Shown here: in pieces, positions 16,927 to 27,343 of the stretch
How the letters are laid out: the number at the start of each line of letters is the position of its first letter
Position numbering within the stretch: position 1 is the stretch's first letter
DNA from: Anaerolineaceae bacterium
Lineage (GTDB): Bacteria; Chloroflexota; Anaerolineae; Anaerolineales; Anaerolineaceae
Length of the DNA stretch: 43,060 nt
Assembly: GCA_017417055.1 (NCBI GenBank)
Contig: JAFPZX010000192.1
Coordinates: 1 to 43,060 of the forward strand
Reading direction: 5' to 3'
Program-made: the position numbers and the translations under genes
Notes under the pieces: generated by a model
Seen by the model: the letters and a program-made list of their open reading frames with translations, nothing else
The model's database searches: none
Told to the model about the DNA's origin: nothing

Positions 16927-19164
16927 TCACGGACGCGGACCCTGGAAGGGATCGCCCGGCTGGCCCTGGTTTTCATCCACGTAAGGCGGAATGGTGCCGC
17001 CGTTATCCGGAACCACACAGCGGAATCCGACAAAATAGCTGCTGGATTGGCTCAGATAGCTGCGTCCGGCGGTACGTGTATATGCCGGATAATTGTTCAC
17101 TTCGGTAGAGGCGCAGGAACCGCCGCGCATCACACGGGAACTGCCGTTTTCCGGTCCGGTGGGATTGGAGACGGTCGTCCCGCTCAGCTCTCCTTCGGCC
17201 TGAAGGGTCTGATAATAATTAGCGCTATACCAGGTGCTTGTCCATTCCCAGACATTCCCGGCCATATCCAACAGGCCATAGGGGCTTTCCCCATTCGGGA
17301 AGGAACCGACCTCGAACAGATCATTTCCGTATCCTTCGTCATCGACATAATTCGGGATATTCGCATAAGCGTTGTCGTAATCCGGTTCTTCATTTCCCCA
17401 CGGGTAGATCCGTCCGTCAGTACCGCGGGCTGCCTTTTCCCACTGGTATTCAGTCGGCAGATGCCCGCCGATCCAGGAGCAGAAGCGTTCCGCCTGTTCC
17501 ACAGTCACGTAAGAGACCGGATAATTTTCCAGCCCCGGCTGATACAGGGACATGTAATATCCCTGGTCGCAGACACCGGCTTCCGCACAGCGAAGGTACT
17601 GCGCGTTGGTAACTTCCGTTTTTCCAATCCAGTATCCATCCAAATAGACCCTAAGCTGAGGAGCCTCTTCCGCTTCATCAGCATAAGGGTCTTCATTTAG
17701 ATTGGAACCGAGCATGAAATTTCCGGCCGGGATGTATATCATTTCCGCACCGCTGCGTTCGTCTGTATAGTTTTCTTTGACTTCATCAGCAGCGGGTGTT
17801 ACTGCCTCAGGAGCCAGCGTCGGATAAGGTGTGGCTGTCACAGCCGCATCCGCGTTCTCTGCTTCCTGAGAACTTGTTTCAGTATTACCTGCTTCAAGGA
17901 CAGCTGCCGCTGTGCTTTCAACAGCAATCGCAACCTGGTTTTGTATTTCCGCCGCAGTGGTTTCTCTGATCATCGTCTGTGTTTCTTCCAGATCAATAAA
18001 AACCGGCGTAAAGGTGGGATAAGGCGTCTGCGTCGGCCAGGCAGCCACGGTCGCGGCAACAGCAAAGGCCTTTTGCGCCTCGGCCGTAATCTCATAAACC
18101 GTCATGCTTTCCCGAACCCAGTCAACGGTAGGTGTCGGGGTGTCACGGGGTGGAACCAGATCACCGAGATATTTCGCGCGGAATTCCTCCGGAATAATAC
18201 CAAACCGGGCCGCTGCCCAGACACCGGCTGCTAACAGCATCAGGCCAAGCAAAACCGAAAGGATGATCTGAGGCAGCTTGTCCTTTTTCTTTTTTCCGCC
18301 GTTTTCCGATTTCTGTTTTTTCGGGCGATTGGCACGGATCATCTCAATCTCTTTCTTTTCGAGATTGAGATCGGTGTCCTCCGGGCTGTCTCCGTCAACC
18401 CGGATCATTGTATCGACCTGATCCCCTTCGTAAATCCGGATCGCGGCAACAGAAGCAGGAACATTCGCTTTGTCAAGAGAAGAGGAACCCAACAGCTGCT
18501 GAACGATCGAGCGCGGGCTGTTGTTTTCCGCTGCTTCGAGGATTTCTTTTTTGCCGATAAAGGTGTCCAGGGAACCGCTGCACAGTAAAAGCGTATCTCC
18601 GCCATGCACATCAATGCCGTCATAAACATCCGTGGTGATGTCGCGTTCTTTTCCCAGCGAAGTGGGAATCGCGTTTGAATTATCGGCTTCTTTCCCGGAT
18701 TGTTCCTGTTCCTCAACCGGTGCGGCGTCTTCTGTGATCTGGAATACTTTCCCGTTTCGGATGATGTAAGCCCGGCAGCCGCCTACAGTAGCAATGGCGA
18801 CTTTTCCATTGGTGACAGACGCGGCAATAGCGGCCGATTCCATGGAATCCGACTGGACTTTGGCATATTCATAAATCTCGTTGTTCGCCGTGCGCATGGC
18901 AAGTGCCAGTTTGTTGGCATCGACATAATCATAGGAATGGAAATATTCGTAAAGGATCTTTTTCGCTGTAAAACGGGCACTGACTTCCGGAAATGAAGTG
19001 CCTTTGACGCCGCTCGCAAGAACATACAAGTTGGAAGCTCCGACTGTCCCATCCGGCTCTTTTTCATAGAAACATGAATATTCGGTGGAAAAATCACTGC
19101 TCCCGTGGAATGTACCAGCATACCCGGCGGAATAAACCTTCGGTTCAGGGTTGTTGTTTTCCAT
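16927..19164 (-). CDS. Membrane protein: degenerate PP2C-like domain, TM segment, FGE-sulfatase fold
   Basis: 745 residues. Residues ~10-245 follow the fold of PP2C serine/threonine phosphatases, but the metal-binding motifs are altered. The ADG motif is ASG (S51), GDSR is GGCR (129-130), T-x-DH is TEDA (A147) and CSDGL is CSGSL (G197). A basic stretch (291-297) and one TM segment (~298-320) follow, then a Thr/Pro-rich linker (TPTPTVDW, PTQTPYPTFTP). From 472 an FGE/SUMF1 fold is seen (IPAGNFMLGS, DGYWIGKTEVTNAQY, LPTEYQWEKAARG, DMAGNVWEW, RVMRGGS, FVGFRCV). Catalytic FGE cysteines are not apparent, so it is probably a binding or sensing module outside the cell. ATG 19164 follows GAGAGAGA; a TTG at 19182 is possible. 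Confidence 0.85.
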   Translation of the reverse strand: MENNNPEPKVYSAGYAGTFHGSSDFSTEYSCFYEKEPDGTVGASNLYVLASGVKGTSFPEVSARFTAKKILYEYFHSYDYVDANKLALAMRTANNEIYEYAKVQSDSMESAAIAASVTNGKVAIATVGGCRAYIIRNGKVFQITEDAAPVEEQEQSGKEADNSNAIPTSLGKERDITTDVYDGIDVHGGDTLLLCSGSLDTFIGKKEILEAAENNSPRSIVQQLLGSSSLDKANVPASVAAIRIYEGDQVDTMIRVDGDSPEDTDLNLEKKEIEMIRANRPKKQKSENGGKKKKDKLPQIILSVLLGLMLLAAGVWAAARFGIIPEEFRAKYLGDLVPPRDTPTPTVDWVRESMTVYEITAEAQKAFAVAATVAAWPTQTPYPTFTPVFIDLEETQTMIRETTAAEIQNQVAIAVESTAAAVLEAGNTETSSQEAENADAAVTATPYPTLAPEAVTPAADEVKENYTDERSGAEMIYIPAGNFMLGSNLNEDPYADEAEEAPQLRVYLDGYWIGKTEVTNAQYLRCAEAGVCDQGYYMSLYQPGLENYPVSYVTVEQAERFCSWIGGHLPTEYQWEKAARGTDGRIYPWGNEEPDYDNAYANIPNYVDDEGYGNDLFEVGSFPNGESPYGLLDMAGNVWEWTSTWYSANYYQTLQAEGELSGTTVSNPTGPENGSSRVMRGGSCASTEVNNYPAYTRTAGRSYLSQSSSYFVGFRCVVPDNGGTIPPYVDENQGQPGDPFQGPRP

Positions 19165-19287
19165 AGGTTCTCTCTCTCTCAAATTAAACCATTGTCAGAA
19201 CTATCTTAATAATTCCATCTTCCATTATAATACAATCCTTAAAAAAAACGAGAAAAAACATAAATTTTAAGGAAGTTTTGCTTAAAA

Positions 19288-19623: not shown

Positions 19624-20466
19624 TTATGCAGTTACCGGCTGTATTAGATATGCATTTGCTTCATCGACAGAAAGATTAAAATCCTTCATGATAACATTTC
19701 TGATCTGATCATCATCGGCATTCAATAAGGATCGATACAATTTTATAGTCTGAGTAATTTCGCCTTCCTTACGGCCTTCTTCACGGCCTTCTTCACGGCC
19801 TTCGGCCTTTATCTCATTATCTCTGATATAATGTCTTAGGTACTCAAGTCTGTTTGCTTCATTGTCTTTTACGGATTTCACTGCGTCATCTAATTCACGG
19901 CTGAAACCACCGGTCACTTTTTCGAGATCTAAATACATAATTACCTCCTTCAATTCTTCACTAATTTCCCCTTTGCATCCTTTTGTATTGACCACAATCT
20001 TATAAGCTTCATCGCCAAATTTCAGTTCAGGATCTTCTCTGCAGGTATTTTCAAAGGTATAAATATATCGGTTTTGTTCAAATGGATCATAATTACAGAT
20101 AAAAATGATATAAGAATTTCGAAGTTTATTGTAATCGTCACCCGGGTTCAAAACGCTGATATCGATTGCTGACTGATAATATCGCATTCTTTTGGGAAGA
20201 TTTCGCTTGTCCGATGTCTGTATTTCAACATTGTAAATAATACCGTTTTCATCGACTACATATAAATCCAAGCGAACACCTTTCGATTCATAAGATGTCT
20301 TTTCGGTCTTCTGCGCTTCAAGAAATTCGATTCTCGAAATATTAATATTCAGGATGCATTGCAGCAGTCGTTTCAAAATATCTTTATTCCGCATAACTGC
20401 TGCGAACATATAATCATCCATCAACGTTAATTCGTCAAGTGTTTTTTTCAAAGTTTTACCACTCAT
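19624..20466 (-). CDS. Rpn family PD-(D/E)XK nuclease / putative transposase
   Basis: 280-residue member of the Rpn (recombination-promoting nuclease, transposase_31-like) family. The N-terminus LDELTLMDDYMFAAVM is typical. The PD-(D/E)XK core is D67 (GVRLDLYVVDENG) with E81-x-Q83 (YNVEIQTSD), then RMRYYQSAIDISVLNPGDDY. The C-terminus has the family tract EGREEGREEGRKEG, encoded by a 12-bp tandem repeat (about 19769-19805), and a short helical tail. I see no good ribosome binding site before ATG 20466, but the conserved N-terminus supports it. It sits against a decayed recQ, which suggests past rearrangement. Confidence 0.88.
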   Translation of the reverse strand: MSGKTLKKTLDELTLMDDYMFAAVMRNKDILKRLLQCILNINISRIEFLEAQKTEKTSYESKGVRLDLYVVDENGIIYNVEIQTSDKRNLPKRMRYYQSAIDISVLNPGDDYNKLRNSYIIFICNYDPFEQNRYIYTFENTCREDPELKFGDEAYKIVVNTKGCKGEISEELKEVIMYLDLEKVTGGFSRELDDAVKSVKDNEANRLEYLRHYIRDNEIKAEGREEGREEGRKEGEITQTIKLYRSLLNADDDQIRNVIMKDFNLSVDEANAYLIQPVTA

Positions 20467-20504: not shown

Positions 20505-21356
20505 TCAGGAAAACTTTGCATAAGCTGTTATTGTTTTCGGCAGTGATTCCAACAGATCACCCGCCATGACTGAATAAGGATTCCCGAATGTATCAGCGGC
20601 GAGCAGACCGGCTCTGGCATGGACCTCACCGCCCAGCCAGGCTGCGTCAAAAGCTGGCTTTCCCTGTGCGGCAAAACCGGCGATAATGCCCGCAAGGACA
20701 TCCCCGCTGCCTGCAACAGAGAGCGCGGATGTGACATAGGGAAGAACGACATAATATCCTTCCGGAGAGGCAATAACCGTGTGAGCACCTTTCAATAAAA
20801 TGATATGGTGCCATTCGGCTGCCTTCGCGAGTGCCAGTTTCGCCCGATTCTCCTGCACTTCCGCCACGCTCATCCTGCACAAACGTGCCATCTCTCCCGG
20901 ATGCGGCGTCAGGACGCAGTTTTCCGGAACAGTTTCGAACCATTCAGGGCTTCGGGAAAGCAGATTCAGCGCATCCGCGTCAAGCACGATCAGTTTGCTG
21001 AACATCGCGGCACTGTTGATCAGTGAAGGCAGCTTTGCAGCGATTTCCGGGGCAGTACCCAAGCCCGGACCGATGACCGTCACAGCATTTTTCCGTTCCG
21101 GTACCAACCCATCCGCAAAGGCTTTGCAGTCCCAGACCGCCTCGGTAAATCCCGGAGCGCCGCAATTTCGCACAATTTCCGGGACGACCAGTTCCACCAG
21201 TCCGCATCCGACGCGGTAAGCTGCCTTCCCACAAAGGATCGGAGCCCCGAGATAATTCTCACATCCGCCGACCACTGTCACGCAGCCGAAGCTGCCCTTA
21301 TTTCCATCCTCTGCCCGCGCGGGCAAACTGATCAATCTCTGAACTTCGGCCATCAT
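20505..21356 (-). CDS. nnrD: ADP/ATP-dependent NAD(P)H-hydrate dehydratase, stand-alone
   Basis: 283-residue ribokinase-like enzyme that repairs hydrated NAD(P)H (NADHX, NADPHX) using ADP or ATP. Motifs: KGSFGCVTVVGG (20-31), GPGLG (96-100), LDADALNLL (125-133), LTPHPGEMARL (149-159), LKGAHTVIA and the catalytic AGSGDVLAG (215-223). The epimerase domain usually fused or paired (NnrE) is absent. Its start overlaps the toxN stop (ATGATG context, 4-nt overlap), so it is translationally coupled to the type III toxin gene, an odd partner for a metabolite-repair enzyme. Confidence 0.92.
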   Translation of the reverse strand: MMAEVQRLISLPARAEDGNKGSFGCVTVVGGCENYLGAPILCGKAAYRVGCGLVELVVPEIVRNCGAPGFTEAVWDCKAFADGLVPERKNAVTVIGPGLGTAPEIAAKLPSLINSAAMFSKLIVLDADALNLLSRSPEWFETVPENCVLTPHPGEMARLCRMSVAEVQENRAKLALAKAAEWHHIILLKGAHTVIASPEGYYVVLPYVTSALSVAGSGDVLAGIIAGFAAQGKPAFDAAWLGGEVHARAGLLAADTFGNPYSVMAGDLLESLPKTITAYAKFS

Positions 21357-21883
21357 TTAGCTCCTGATTCATTTGTTCGGCATTTGAGGAAATATTCTTT
21401 GCAATGTTTTTCATCTTCAGAAAAATTACAGCACCTGTCAGCTAATGATTTCCACGCTTTATTATTTACGATCATATTATATAATTTCTCAGCTTGATTC
21501 AAAATCAAATCACGATGTGAATTACACCATGACAATTGATTCATCAACAGTTTTTTGTACATTATTACTTCTTGTGTATCCTCTTTGTCTATTCTCATGT
21601 CTATTTCTTTGATTGAAAAATCATTCACCGGAATCATATTGTTGAAATTGACAGCGCCCCAGATACCGTTATTAATTTTCAAAAAATCTATTTGATTACT
21701 CATCGCTAAATGTTTTGGCTTTGGTGAAGTCAGCGGAGCGTAATATTTAAAATCCCTGATAGAAAAAACAATACCCACAAAAGGTCTGGATGATTTTTTC
21801 TCCATAGTATGCGGAACCTTTGCATCAAATTGCCGTAAGAAATTACAATAGGAAGTATCAATGGTGTAAAATGAAAATCTCAT
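21353..21883 (-). CDS. toxN: Type III toxin-antitoxin toxin, ToxN/AbiQ family endoribonuclease
   Basis: 176-residue endoribonuclease toxin of the ToxN/AbiQ family. These enzymes cut cellular and phage RNA at A-rich sites and are held inactive by a repeat RNA; several give abortive phage infection. Family hallmarks: FYTIDTSYCNFLRQFDAKVP (5-24), RPFVGIVFSI, YYAPLTSPKPKH with T52, S53 and K55 at the positions known from ToxN, NFNNMIPV, and YKKLLMNQLSWCNSHRDLI. The start at 21883 has AAGGTG 5 nt upstream. Just 5' lie a terminator hairpin and three 35-bp repeats with their own promoter, which is the complete toxI-toxN arrangement. The stop overlaps nnrD. Confidence 0.9.
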   Translation of the reverse strand: MRFSFYTIDTSYCNFLRQFDAKVPHTMEKKSSRPFVGIVFSIRDFKYYAPLTSPKPKHLAMSNQIDFLKINNGIWGAVNFNNMIPVNDFSIKEIDMRIDKEDTQEVIMYKKLLMNQLSWCNSHRDLILNQAEKLYNMIVNNKAWKSLADRCCNFSEDEKHCKEYFLKCRTNESGAK

Positions 21884-21895
21884 GAATTCACCTTT

Positions 21896-21924
21896 AAAAA
21901 ATGACCGGTTTTTGTTCCGGTCAT
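21896..21924 (-). terminator. Terminator between repeat RNA antitoxin and toxN
   Basis: ATGACCGG (21901-21908) and CCGGTCAT (21917-21924) form a perfect 8-bp stem; on the minus strand ATTTTTT follows. It lies between the last repeat and the toxN ribosome binding site. In ToxIN systems such a leaky terminator makes antitoxin RNA more abundant than toxin mRNA. Confidence 0.75.
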
Positions 21925-21927
21925 AAC

Positions 21928-22032
21928 TTTTTTAGCTCCCACTTATTGGTAGGGTACACCGCTTTTTTAGCTCCCACTTATTGGTAGGGTACACCGCTTT
22001 TTTAGCTCCCACTTATTGGTAGGGTACACCGC
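21928..22032 (-). ncRNA. toxI: ToxI-type antitoxin RNA: three perfect 35-nt tandem repeats
   Basis: Three identical 35-bp units (minus strand: 22032-21998, 21997-21963, 21962-21928), each starting GCGGTGTACCCTACC and ending GGGAGCTAAAAAA. Five A residues precede the first unit, so cleavage in the A-runs would give exactly three equal RNAs. Within one unit G3-G4-U5 can pair with A13-C14-C15, and C9-C10-C11 with G23-G24-G25; the pairs interleave as an H-type pseudoknot, as in known ToxI RNAs. Length (35 nt), copy number, promoter, terminator and position before toxN all fit family knowledge. There are no spacers, so it is not CRISPR. Confidence 0.88.
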
Positions 22033-22055
22033 TTTTTGGATTACTCCACAACTTT

Positions 22056-22084
22056 AGTATATAGCTTTTCTTTCAAAAAGTCAA
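22056..22084 (-). promoter_or_regulatory. Promoter of the toxI-toxN locus
   Basis: On the minus strand TTGACT (22084-22079), a 17-bp spacer, TATACT (22061-22056). Transcription would start near 22049, about 17 nt before the first repeat. A second TTGACT lies 8 bp further upstream. Confidence 0.75.
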
Positions 22085-22171: not shown

Positions 22172-22483
22172 TCACAATTTTTTTATATAATTCTCTCGTG
22201 CATGAAAAATCCCGGAAATCTTTATACAATCATCACATATAAGATACAAAATCACATAATCATAATGAGCCAAAATGCATTTTCTATATTCTTTTTTAGC
22301 CAGATATGGATCATCACACATCGGAAAAGACTCAGGAAATTTTTCTATTGTCTCGTATAAATCAAAAATTTCATCCAATATTTCGCTTGATGCCTTCGAA
22401 TTTTTCAGTTTATTCACAATATAAAATATTATATTGTCCAGCTGATTATTTGCTTCGGCTGAAACAATGAGTTTATAGCCCAT
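22172..22483 (-). CDS. ParE/RelE-superfamily type II toxin
   Basis: 103-residue toxin of the ParE/RelE fold (small basic mRNA interferase or gyrase poison; which one cannot be told). YKLIVSAEANNQLDNIIFYI is the usual N-terminal strand and helix, FPESFPMCDDPYL follows in the middle, and YRKCILAHYDYVILYLI ends in strands with conserved Arg and Tyr, followed by HARENYIKKL. Its start overlaps the antitoxin stop by 11 nt, showing coupling. No terminator is seen between it and the toxI promoter region downstream. Confidence 0.85.
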   Translation of the reverse strand: MGYKLIVSAEANNQLDNIIFYIVNKLKNSKASSEILDEIFDLYETIEKFPESFPMCDDPYLAKKEYRKCILAHYDYVILYLICDDCIKISGIFHARENYIKKL

Positions 22484-22733
22484 ATTTAGCTCTTATATCA
22501 GTTAAGGCAGTTTTTGCGTCTAAATAGGCCCCTGCGACGAACTGCTGTTCAGAAATTGCAAGCTCTTTGAATATTTCCAGCTTTTTGAACATTTCGTCAT
22601 ATGCATCCATACTCATCAATACCATCTCACCAAACCCATTTTTTGTAATAAAAATAGGCTCATTCGTATTTCGGCACATTTCGAAAATGTGATTTGTGTC
22701 TTTGAGTTCTTTTATGGGAATTATTTGCGGCAT
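22473..22733 (-). CDS. Phd/YefM-type antitoxin
   Basis: 86-residue antitoxin. The N-terminus IIPIKELKDTNHIFEMC followed by EPIFITKNGFGEMVLMSMDAY is the Phd/YefM DNA-binding fold; the C-terminal helix would wrap the toxin encoded next. The start at 22733 follows GAGG with short spacing. Such antitoxins repress their own promoter, and a 14-bp palindrome overlapping the likely -10 element lies just upstream (22743-22773). Confidence 0.87.
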   Translation of the reverse strand: MPQIIPIKELKDTNHIFEMCRNTNEPIFITKNGFGEMVLMSMDAYDEMFKKLEIFKELAISEQQFVAGAYLDAKTALTDIRAKYGL

Positions 22734-26436: not shown

Positions 26437-27267
26437 TTAGGATAATTTCATCAACAATATGTCCCGATCCTTGGCAGGAATACCCATTGCATCCATGGCC
26501 TGTTGAGCTGATAATTTCAGATTGTTCATAAGATTTCGAATTACTTCAAGCTGAGTTTGTTCTCTGCCCTGTTCTCTGCCTTGTTCTCTGCCTTGTTCCC
26601 TGACTTCTTCAAACGCTCTGCACATTGTTTCAACTCCTTTCGGATTTTCCTTGTAATACCGTGTTGTTTCTCTGAACAATTCATAATGCATATCATCCGG
26701 ATTCCAGCAGGAAAAATCGTGCATCAGTTTTCCAAGGTCGGAATCATCTCGATATTCACCATTCACATAGATAATATGCTCGCCATCGTTGAATAATTTA
26801 TTTGTCGAAAGATTTACCCTCTCAATTCTGTATAACGGAAGACCTTCTTTATAATAATCCTTTTCCGTTATCAATATGGTATACGTTTCAGGAAGTTCAT
26901 CAAAGTCCTGACCAGCATCAAGATTTTCCACGTCCATACAGCTTGAATGATATCTTGCACGATGGACACCAGCTCCGCTGTCAGCTCGTTGAATCTCCAT
27001 ATCATACTTCTTGTTTTCATTATCAGTACCGAGAGCATCAACGCAAATCGAACGGGCACCCACAAGCCGTTTCAGATCCTTCTGAGTTTCTAAACGAGTA
27101 ATAATCAGATCTTCCTTACCTATGATAATTCGAAGTACAAGCTGCGCTAATGGAATATTATCCCGAAAAATGCAGCGCATGAAATCATCGTCAATCGGGC
27201 GCAATCCGCGCAATCGAGCAAGATCTTCCTGTCGCTCTCTGATCTTTACAATGTCTTTTTCGCCCAT
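26437..27267 (-). CDS. Rpn-type PD-(D/E)XK nuclease family protein
   Basis: 276 residues from ATG 27267 (AAAGG 7 nt upstream; an in-frame GTG at 27282 lies before that site and is rejected). It belongs to the PD-(D/E)XK nuclease-like transposase group: GLRPIDDDFMRCIFRD, D77 (SICVDALGTDNENKKY), E91-x-Q93 (YDMEIQRAD), and HRARYHSSCMDVENLDAGQDF. The C-terminal part has REQG repeated three times, coded by 12-bp tandem units (~26558-26602). It sits between the permease genes and treS, behind a terminator, as an apparent insertion into the sugar locus. Confidence 0.85.
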   Translation of the reverse strand: MGEKDIVKIRERQEDLARLRGLRPIDDDFMRCIFRDNIPLAQLVLRIIIGKEDLIITRLETQKDLKRLVGARSICVDALGTDNENKKYDMEIQRADSGAGVHRARYHSSCMDVENLDAGQDFDELPETYTILITEKDYYKEGLPLYRIERVNLSTNKLFNDGEHIIYVNGEYRDDSDLGKLMHDFSCWNPDDMHYELFRETTRYYKENPKGVETMCRAFEEVREQGREQGREQGREQTQLEVIRNLMNNLKLSAQQAMDAMGIPAKDRDILLMKLS

Positions 27268-27343
27268 ACAGATACCTTTCACCCGAAAAACCTGTTTATA
27301 TTATACACTCCTGTCCGGAAAAATCAATGTCAACTTTCTGAAG

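Follow-up and report, generated by a model that had tools for sequence, protein, structure and literature searches.

A complete chromosomal ToxIN (type III) toxin-antitoxin locus with three identical antitoxin units in an Anaerolineaceae bacterium

On the minus strand of the window, the whole 43,060-nucleotide stretch of Anaerolineaceae DNA analysed here, a gene of 176 aa is preceded, reading from 22084 down to 21353, by a promoter-like site, an array of three identical 35-nt units, a terminator hairpin and lastly a ribosome-binding site. The features are as follows.

22056..22084, minus strand: promoter-like site TTGACT-17-TATACT before toxI-toxN (score 10 of 12)
22003..22037, minus strand: ToxI unit 1, 35 nt (sequence, Tandem Repeats Finder; Rfam RF02519 positions 1-34, 16.4 bits)
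21968..22002, minus strand: ToxI unit 2, 35 nt, same letters as unit 1 (sequence, Tandem Repeats Finder, Rfam alignment)
21933..21967, minus strand: ToxI unit 3, 35 nt, same letters as units 1-2 (sequence, Tandem Repeats Finder, Rfam alignment)
21932-21927, minus strand: AAAAAG, a partial fourth ToxI unit (sequence)
21896..21924, minus strand: intrinsic terminator in the toxI/toxN interval (8-bp stem at 21924-21901, then five T)
21889..21894, minus strand: toxN ribosome-binding site AAGGTG (sequence)
21353..21883, minus strand: toxN, a 176-aa ToxN/AbiQ-family toxin and predicted endoribonuclease (Pfam, PADLOC and PDB sequence matches)

This order of promoter-like site, array, terminator and toxN agrees with the published type III layout (PMC5086642, in part). 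The earlier note had listed the same elements, namely the promoter, three perfect 35-bp repeats, the terminator hairpin, AAGGTG and a ToxN-like gene with T52, S53 and K55, and all were found where it had placed them. Only the repeat register differs, its 21928-22032 corresponding to the array at 22037-21927.

The note had identified the locus as a ToxIN/AbiQ-type type III system and proposed a ToxN profile search as one check, with failure to match as a refuting result. That result did not occur: the protein matched Pfam PF13958 ToxN_toxin over profile positions 2-159 of 159 (177.6 bits against a cut-off of 25, E 2.7e-52) and the PADLOC AbiQ profile over positions 2-157 of 160 (E 4.6e-38). NCBIfam returned no family for it at E up to 0.001. 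Among PDB sequences, matches at E up to 1 were confined to four ToxN/AbiQ entries: 4ato (E 2e-22, residues 4-169), which we take to be Bacillus thuringiensis ToxN; 2xd0 (5.3e-18), presumably Pectobacterium atrosepticum ToxN; 7d8o (3.5e-16); and 4glk (5.7e-9), of Lactococcus AbiQ. Profile, structure-sequence and RNA evidence back the proposed identity. Membership of the CptIN or TenpIN groups was rejected, ToxN_toxin being the sole Pfam match at E up to 0.001 and the PDB matches being ToxN/AbiQ only.

The catalytic Thr-Ser-x-Lys motif is present as T52-S53-P54-K55, and S53, P54, K55 and H58 are invariant across an eight-row alignment that includes the Pectobacterium protein and one from a Lactococcus plasmid. 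The active site of Pectobacterium ToxN comprises Tyr29, Lys33, Thr52, Ser53 and Lys55 (PMC5086642, in part). Its Tyr29 and Lys33 have no identical counterpart in the window protein, and the aligned plasmid proteins of Lactococcus, Fusobacterium and Sutcliffiella lack them too.

Characterised systems resemble the locus to differing degrees. B. thuringiensis ToxIN, the best PDB match, has about three units (2.9) of 34 nt (PMC5086642, in part), but its sequence is clearly diverged, it belongs to another phylum and the window unit is 35 nt. Pectobacterium ToxIN (pECA1039, L095) shares the toxin family, the T-S-x-K motif and the array-terminator-toxN order, but its protein is only 31% identical and its units are 36 nt long in 5.6 copies by Tandem Repeats Finder. 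The antiQ RNA of Lactococcus AbiQ, whose PADLOC profile the window protein matches, has a 35-nt unit in 2.8 copies (PMC5086642, in part). A Lactococcus plasmid locus of the ToxN/AbiQ family (L094) has a unit core, GCGGTGAATCTCCACC, that resembles the window unit, but it is plasmid-borne and its protein is 39% identical. The nearest relative is L005, from 'Lachnospiraceae bacterium isolate B68'. Its ToxN is the sister of the window protein in the tree (support 98*) at 63% identity, and it has the same layout with three units, the 34-nt unit being almost identical to that of the window; it differs in its Firmicutes host and in that its three units differ among themselves. Identity to plasmid relatives was under 60% in all 165 records. 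A peptide-pattern scan of viral contigs gave no relative, and diverged ToxN proteins occur in three phage records.

Tandem Repeats Finder reported a single array at 21927-22037, with period 35, 3.2 copies and 100% match, bearing out the three perfect repeats. Its score of 222 compares with a best of 56 in 30 Markov-1 resamples of the window, and the array is thus not a product of chance. At curated thresholds Rfam found no ToxI in the window; a permissive scan aligned each unit to positions 1-34 of ToxI RF02519 at 16.4 bits (E 2.7), so far under the gathering score of 50 that Rfam alone would not call ToxI. A nested fold of one unit was no better than shuffles (z 0.07), which is as expected if the unit is a pseudoknot yet lends a pseudoknot no support.

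Covariation among relatives was more informative. MAFFT misplaced the 3' arm of stem 2 in an alignment of 26 short units, and covariation was therefore tested by arm permutation. A first run on 25 of these hand-picked units, one L051 unit having been dropped since its arm does not fit the rule, agreed on stem 2 covariation. In the second run a script extracted the letters of units from the window, from its relatives and from those among 13 plasmid or phage loci whose unit contains GGTG or GGAG, giving 175 units of which 65 were distinct. The four bases ahead of the connecting base were paired with the 3' part of their own unit or of a permuted partner. The mean run across the 65 units was 3.29 with the unit's own arm and 2.77 with permuted arms, and none of 5000 permutations reached the observed sum. 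When each of the 16 distinct arms was represented by a single unit, the values were 3.38 and 2.55 (0/5000). The pairs include CCC/GGG, TCC/GGA, GCC/GGC and CTC/GAG, and the weakest case is a Fusobacterium phage unit with two bases paired by the rule. Stem 1, GGU with ACC or GCC, was seen by inspection only; it hardly varies and so lies outside the covariation test. Taken together, these comparisons support an H-type pseudoknot as the predicted fold of the ToxI unit, with stem 2 carried by covariation.

The 33-nt terminator stretch folds at -12.4 kcal/mol (z -4.30), and a terminator-like hairpin was present in 49 of 59 loci compared with 88 of 295 shuffles. The letters of the promoter are likewise in place at 22084-22056, but promoter-like matches between 21300 and 22800 numbered six against a mean of 6.8 in shuffles and are thus not above chance by count. 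The site gains some weight from a decayed ToxIN copy in a same-genus genome (L003), in which TTGACT-17-TATACT before the array is retained (read by eye), and from the comparison of loci, since in 27 of 56 the best promoter score ahead of the array was at least 10 of 12, compared with 16% of shuffles.

The locus adds a new member to ToxIN, by its toxin family, T-S-x-K motif, array, terminator and stem 2 covariation. We put at roughly 95% the probability that it is a complete chromosomal type III locus, with the standard ToxIN cycle as its proposed mechanism. In that cycle one promoter would yield a short RNA of three ToxI units, mostly stopping at the terminator, with a minority of transcripts presumably reading through into toxN. 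ToxN would cleave the A-rich linkers, and the four A-runs would delimit exactly three units. Each released 35-nt unit would fold as a pseudoknot, with stem 1 GGU/ACC and stem 2 CCC/GGG, and be bound head to tail between two ToxN proteins so that their active sites are blocked, probably in a 3:3 ring as in the solved relatives. If the supply of short-lived ToxI were to drop, as upon phage infection in known systems, free ToxN would be expected to cut RNA and halt the cell. RNase activity, processing and neutralisation are here predicted by analogy with known ToxN proteins, and a role in phage defence would follow from membership of the ToxIN family.

The earlier note had further reasoned that three equal antitoxin units would suit a 3:3 complex. 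As a necessity this does not stand, since Pectobacterium ToxI has 5.5 units and B. thuringiensis 2.9, yet both give 3:3 hexamers (PMC5086642, in part); in E. coli, between 3 and 5.6 repeats make up a ToxI cluster (PMC8860590, in part). Copy number outside the branch of the window was sampled in the 13 plasmid or phage loci, hand-chosen from 168 records, and ranged from 1.9 to 10.1. Four enterobacterial plasmids had 5.0, 5.6, 5.8 and 10.1 copies, four Bacillota plasmids and two Clostridioides phage records 2.9-3.2, a Pseudomonas locus 3.0, and two Fusobacterium records 3.4 and 1.9. Within the branch three units are usual, which gives the intuition some comparative backing. A genome scan yielded 64 relatives, in which units were counted by Tandem Repeats Finder and by motif count, and three units of 34-37 nt were the usual arrangement. 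Among the loci with three units, ToxN sequences diverge at roughly half of their positions.

Unit number was then compared between intact and broken toxins in 59 scored loci, the window included; six loci (L022, L030, L037, L042, L059, L068), in which a contig edge cuts or may cut the array, were left out, and the counts of L051 (3) and L011 (4) were set by eye. Amongst 49 loci with an intact toxin, the window being one, 44 had three units, two had two, two had four and one had five. The ten loci with a broken toxin comprised five with one unit, two with two and three with three. Fewer than three units were thus found in 2/49 intact compared with 7/10 broken loci (Fisher p = 1.1e-5, not corrected for relatedness), and for every one of the ten broken loci the intact relative that scores best has three units. 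Three class assignments departed from the automatic rule of the order-wide extension (below) or its outcome: L055 and L065, intact by the rule, were classed as broken, since their homology stops at residues 137 and 114, respectively, whilst L176, broken by the rule for want of a start codon, was left unscored. A code that reads TGA cannot rescue L049 and L052, as their in-frame stops are TAA. In the five single-unit loci, leader and terminator flank one whole unit, and these arrays look like the result of contraction by recombination and not of mutational decay.

Three relatives (L011, L014, L061) have mixed arrays beside an intact ToxN, in which three units of 59 nt, whose pseudoknot loop holds an insert, are followed by ordinary units of about 34 nt; in L014 ordinary units also precede them. 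The insert is perhaps an extra hairpin (fold z only -1.41).

A quick tree implied ten separate toxin losses and nine separate reductions below three units, its forks being mostly weak. Restricted to supported branches there were three independent pairs, and a sign test showed nothing (median p = 1). The comparison was also extended across the order. We submitted 187 loci to tblastn (the 64 relatives, three same-genus loci and 120 new ones, these being 30 and 30 from two scans and 60 picked among the matches listed), and 172 had a match. Repeat removal left at least 135 loci; the figure of 135 is too low, as 12 loci lacking a recognised array and start codon, most of them unscored, were wrongly merged (L002, L059, L068, L129, L136, L138, L139, L143, L173, L178, L191, L200), and many of the remaining extension loci duplicate loci of the 64-relative set.

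Broken toxins in the extension stood beside about three units in L140 and L166 (Tandem Repeats Finder), about two in L165, L169 and the same-genus L003 and L004, and one in L141 and L149. Ten more broken loci had no recognised array (L002, L137, L142, L144, L145, L147, L148, which lies at a contig edge, L157, L167 and L168). L198, with the unit type of the window's branch, combines an intact toxin with a single unit. Amongst intact loci with other unit types, seven have about two copies (2.0-2.5; L172, L210, L211, L213, L216, L223, L224), L220 has 4.0 and the rest mostly 2.8-3.2; about 20 more had no array by Tandem Repeats Finder and were left unscored.

One interpretation is that unit number in this branch is under selection, three being held while the toxin is alive and the array collapsing to one or two once toxN is broken. 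The intact two-copy loci lowered our confidence in it, and we now rate it at slightly under even odds. It would fit the report that adding or removing one antiQ repeat weakens AbiQ phage resistance (PMC5086642, in part). If correct, unit number would be part of function, through antitoxin dose or ring assembly, and not a neutral repeat count. Array contraction following toxin loss, the most interesting by-product of the comparison, amounts to a hint, to which the phylogeny adds little and which meets counter-examples. Setting intact against broken toxins nevertheless makes the old question of antitoxin repeat number directly testable.

The neighbours of ToxIN in the window are an amylase gene and nnrD, and the sequence between these two is AT-rich. 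Counterparts of nnrD in four same-genus genomes are 87%, 83%, 80% and 76% identical. G005 carries a broken ToxIN flanked by the same two genes, its amylase gene being 90% identical, and in G012 the amylase gene (95% identical) neighbours nnrD with ToxIN absent. A binning error is unlikely as the source of the locus, given these counterparts and the shared amylase-nnrD neighbourhoods.

The host is read as Chloroflexota from 16S genes of its genus. None was found in the genome of the window or in a same-family genome, but those of two same-genus genomes (G009 and G004) both contain exact target sites of the Chloroflexi probes GNSB941 and CFX1223 (probe sequences from PMC7387413, in part). ToxN was found in only 1 of 400 evenly drawn Chloroflexota genomes, that of the window itself, and in 3 of the 201 nearest genomes: that of the window, G005 and G006. 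By contrast, in the order of the Firmicutes relative L032 (uncultured Clostridium sp.), ToxN matches at E up to 0.001 occur in 150 of 385 genomes, and in 136 the score exceeds the family cut-off. Horizontal gain from Firmicutes would be the natural reading. The kind of system is already known and is rare in this Chloroflexota lineage, where a well-preserved ToxIN is found together with a decayed copy at the same site in a species of the same genus. A 2016 review listed type III systems in only eight bacterial phyla (PMC5086642, in part); Chloroflexi went unmentioned in the portion of the type III and ToxN literature covered, which leaves room for earlier reports of a locus of this kind.

G005 and G006 hold only broken ToxN, indicating that ToxIN is often lost in the genus. 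At the shared site G005 has two units and a ToxN reduced to a 37-aa in-frame stretch, and G006 has two broken ToxN pieces, elsewhere than the amylase-nnrD site, one of them with two degenerate units. The window copy might likewise be silent or dying, its toxN intact but expression or function gone. We judge this improbable, as toxN reads uninterrupted across the full length of the profile, the three repeats match perfectly, and the locus has its promoter-like site, terminator and ribosome-binding site in place; broken-toxin loci also tend to have fewer units than the three seen here.

Downstream, the stop codon of toxN and the start codon of nnrD share the letters ATGA (21356-21353), and AGGAG occurs inside toxN just upstream of that start, as might be expected of a single operon coupling the toxin to NAD(P)H-hydrate repair. 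This arrangement is very improbable: G006, G012 and G013 carry nnrD behind other sequence, and in G012 it neighbours the amylase gene, with no ToxN match. The adjacency is best read as an insertion beside a gene. The 283-aa nnrD (20505-21356) stands alone in the window, G005, G006, G012 and G013. The other 24 matching genomes have it within a longer open frame, of about 520-570 aa, which is probably a fusion to nnrE.

Upstream of toxI lies a type II toxin-antitoxin pair (22172-22733), in which a Phd/YefM-like antitoxin (22473-22733) overlaps a ParE-like toxin (22172-22483; both by Pfam). With tblastn at E 1e-3, neither the equivalent region of G005 (L003) nor L070-L072 gave a match to the pair. 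The position of ToxIN directly beside this second pair raises the question of a selfish addiction module, whose loss kills the cell and which gives little or no phage defence. The AT-rich stretch, with 31-37% GC in 500-base windows where nnrD and the amylase gene on either side have about 50%, would suit such an element, as would the PDDEXK_2 transposase-family genes at 19624-20466 and 26437-27282 (Pfam) that flank the amylase and toxin-antitoxin stretch, the decayed copies in two same-genus species, and the plasmid stabilisation conferred by some type III systems (PMC5086642, in part). It was, however, phage resistance that led to the discovery of type III systems, and AbiQ gives protection from some phages (PMC5086642 and PMC5772629, both in part). 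We consider addiction with little or no defence rather unlikely, and the two roles are not exclusive.

Some further observations concern the neighbourhood and the family. The protein encoded at 16927-19182 (751 aa) has a sulfatase-modifying-factor (FGE) domain at its C-terminus, and residues 100-161 give a PP2C-like match under threshold (Pfam). In the Firmicutes order, two single genomes (G719 and G652) have nine and eight ToxN matches, respectively. Seven others (G612, G640, G715, G754, G779, G828, G831) have ToxN-profile matches in open frames that, at 371-393 aa, are roughly double the normal length and possibly fusions to another domain.
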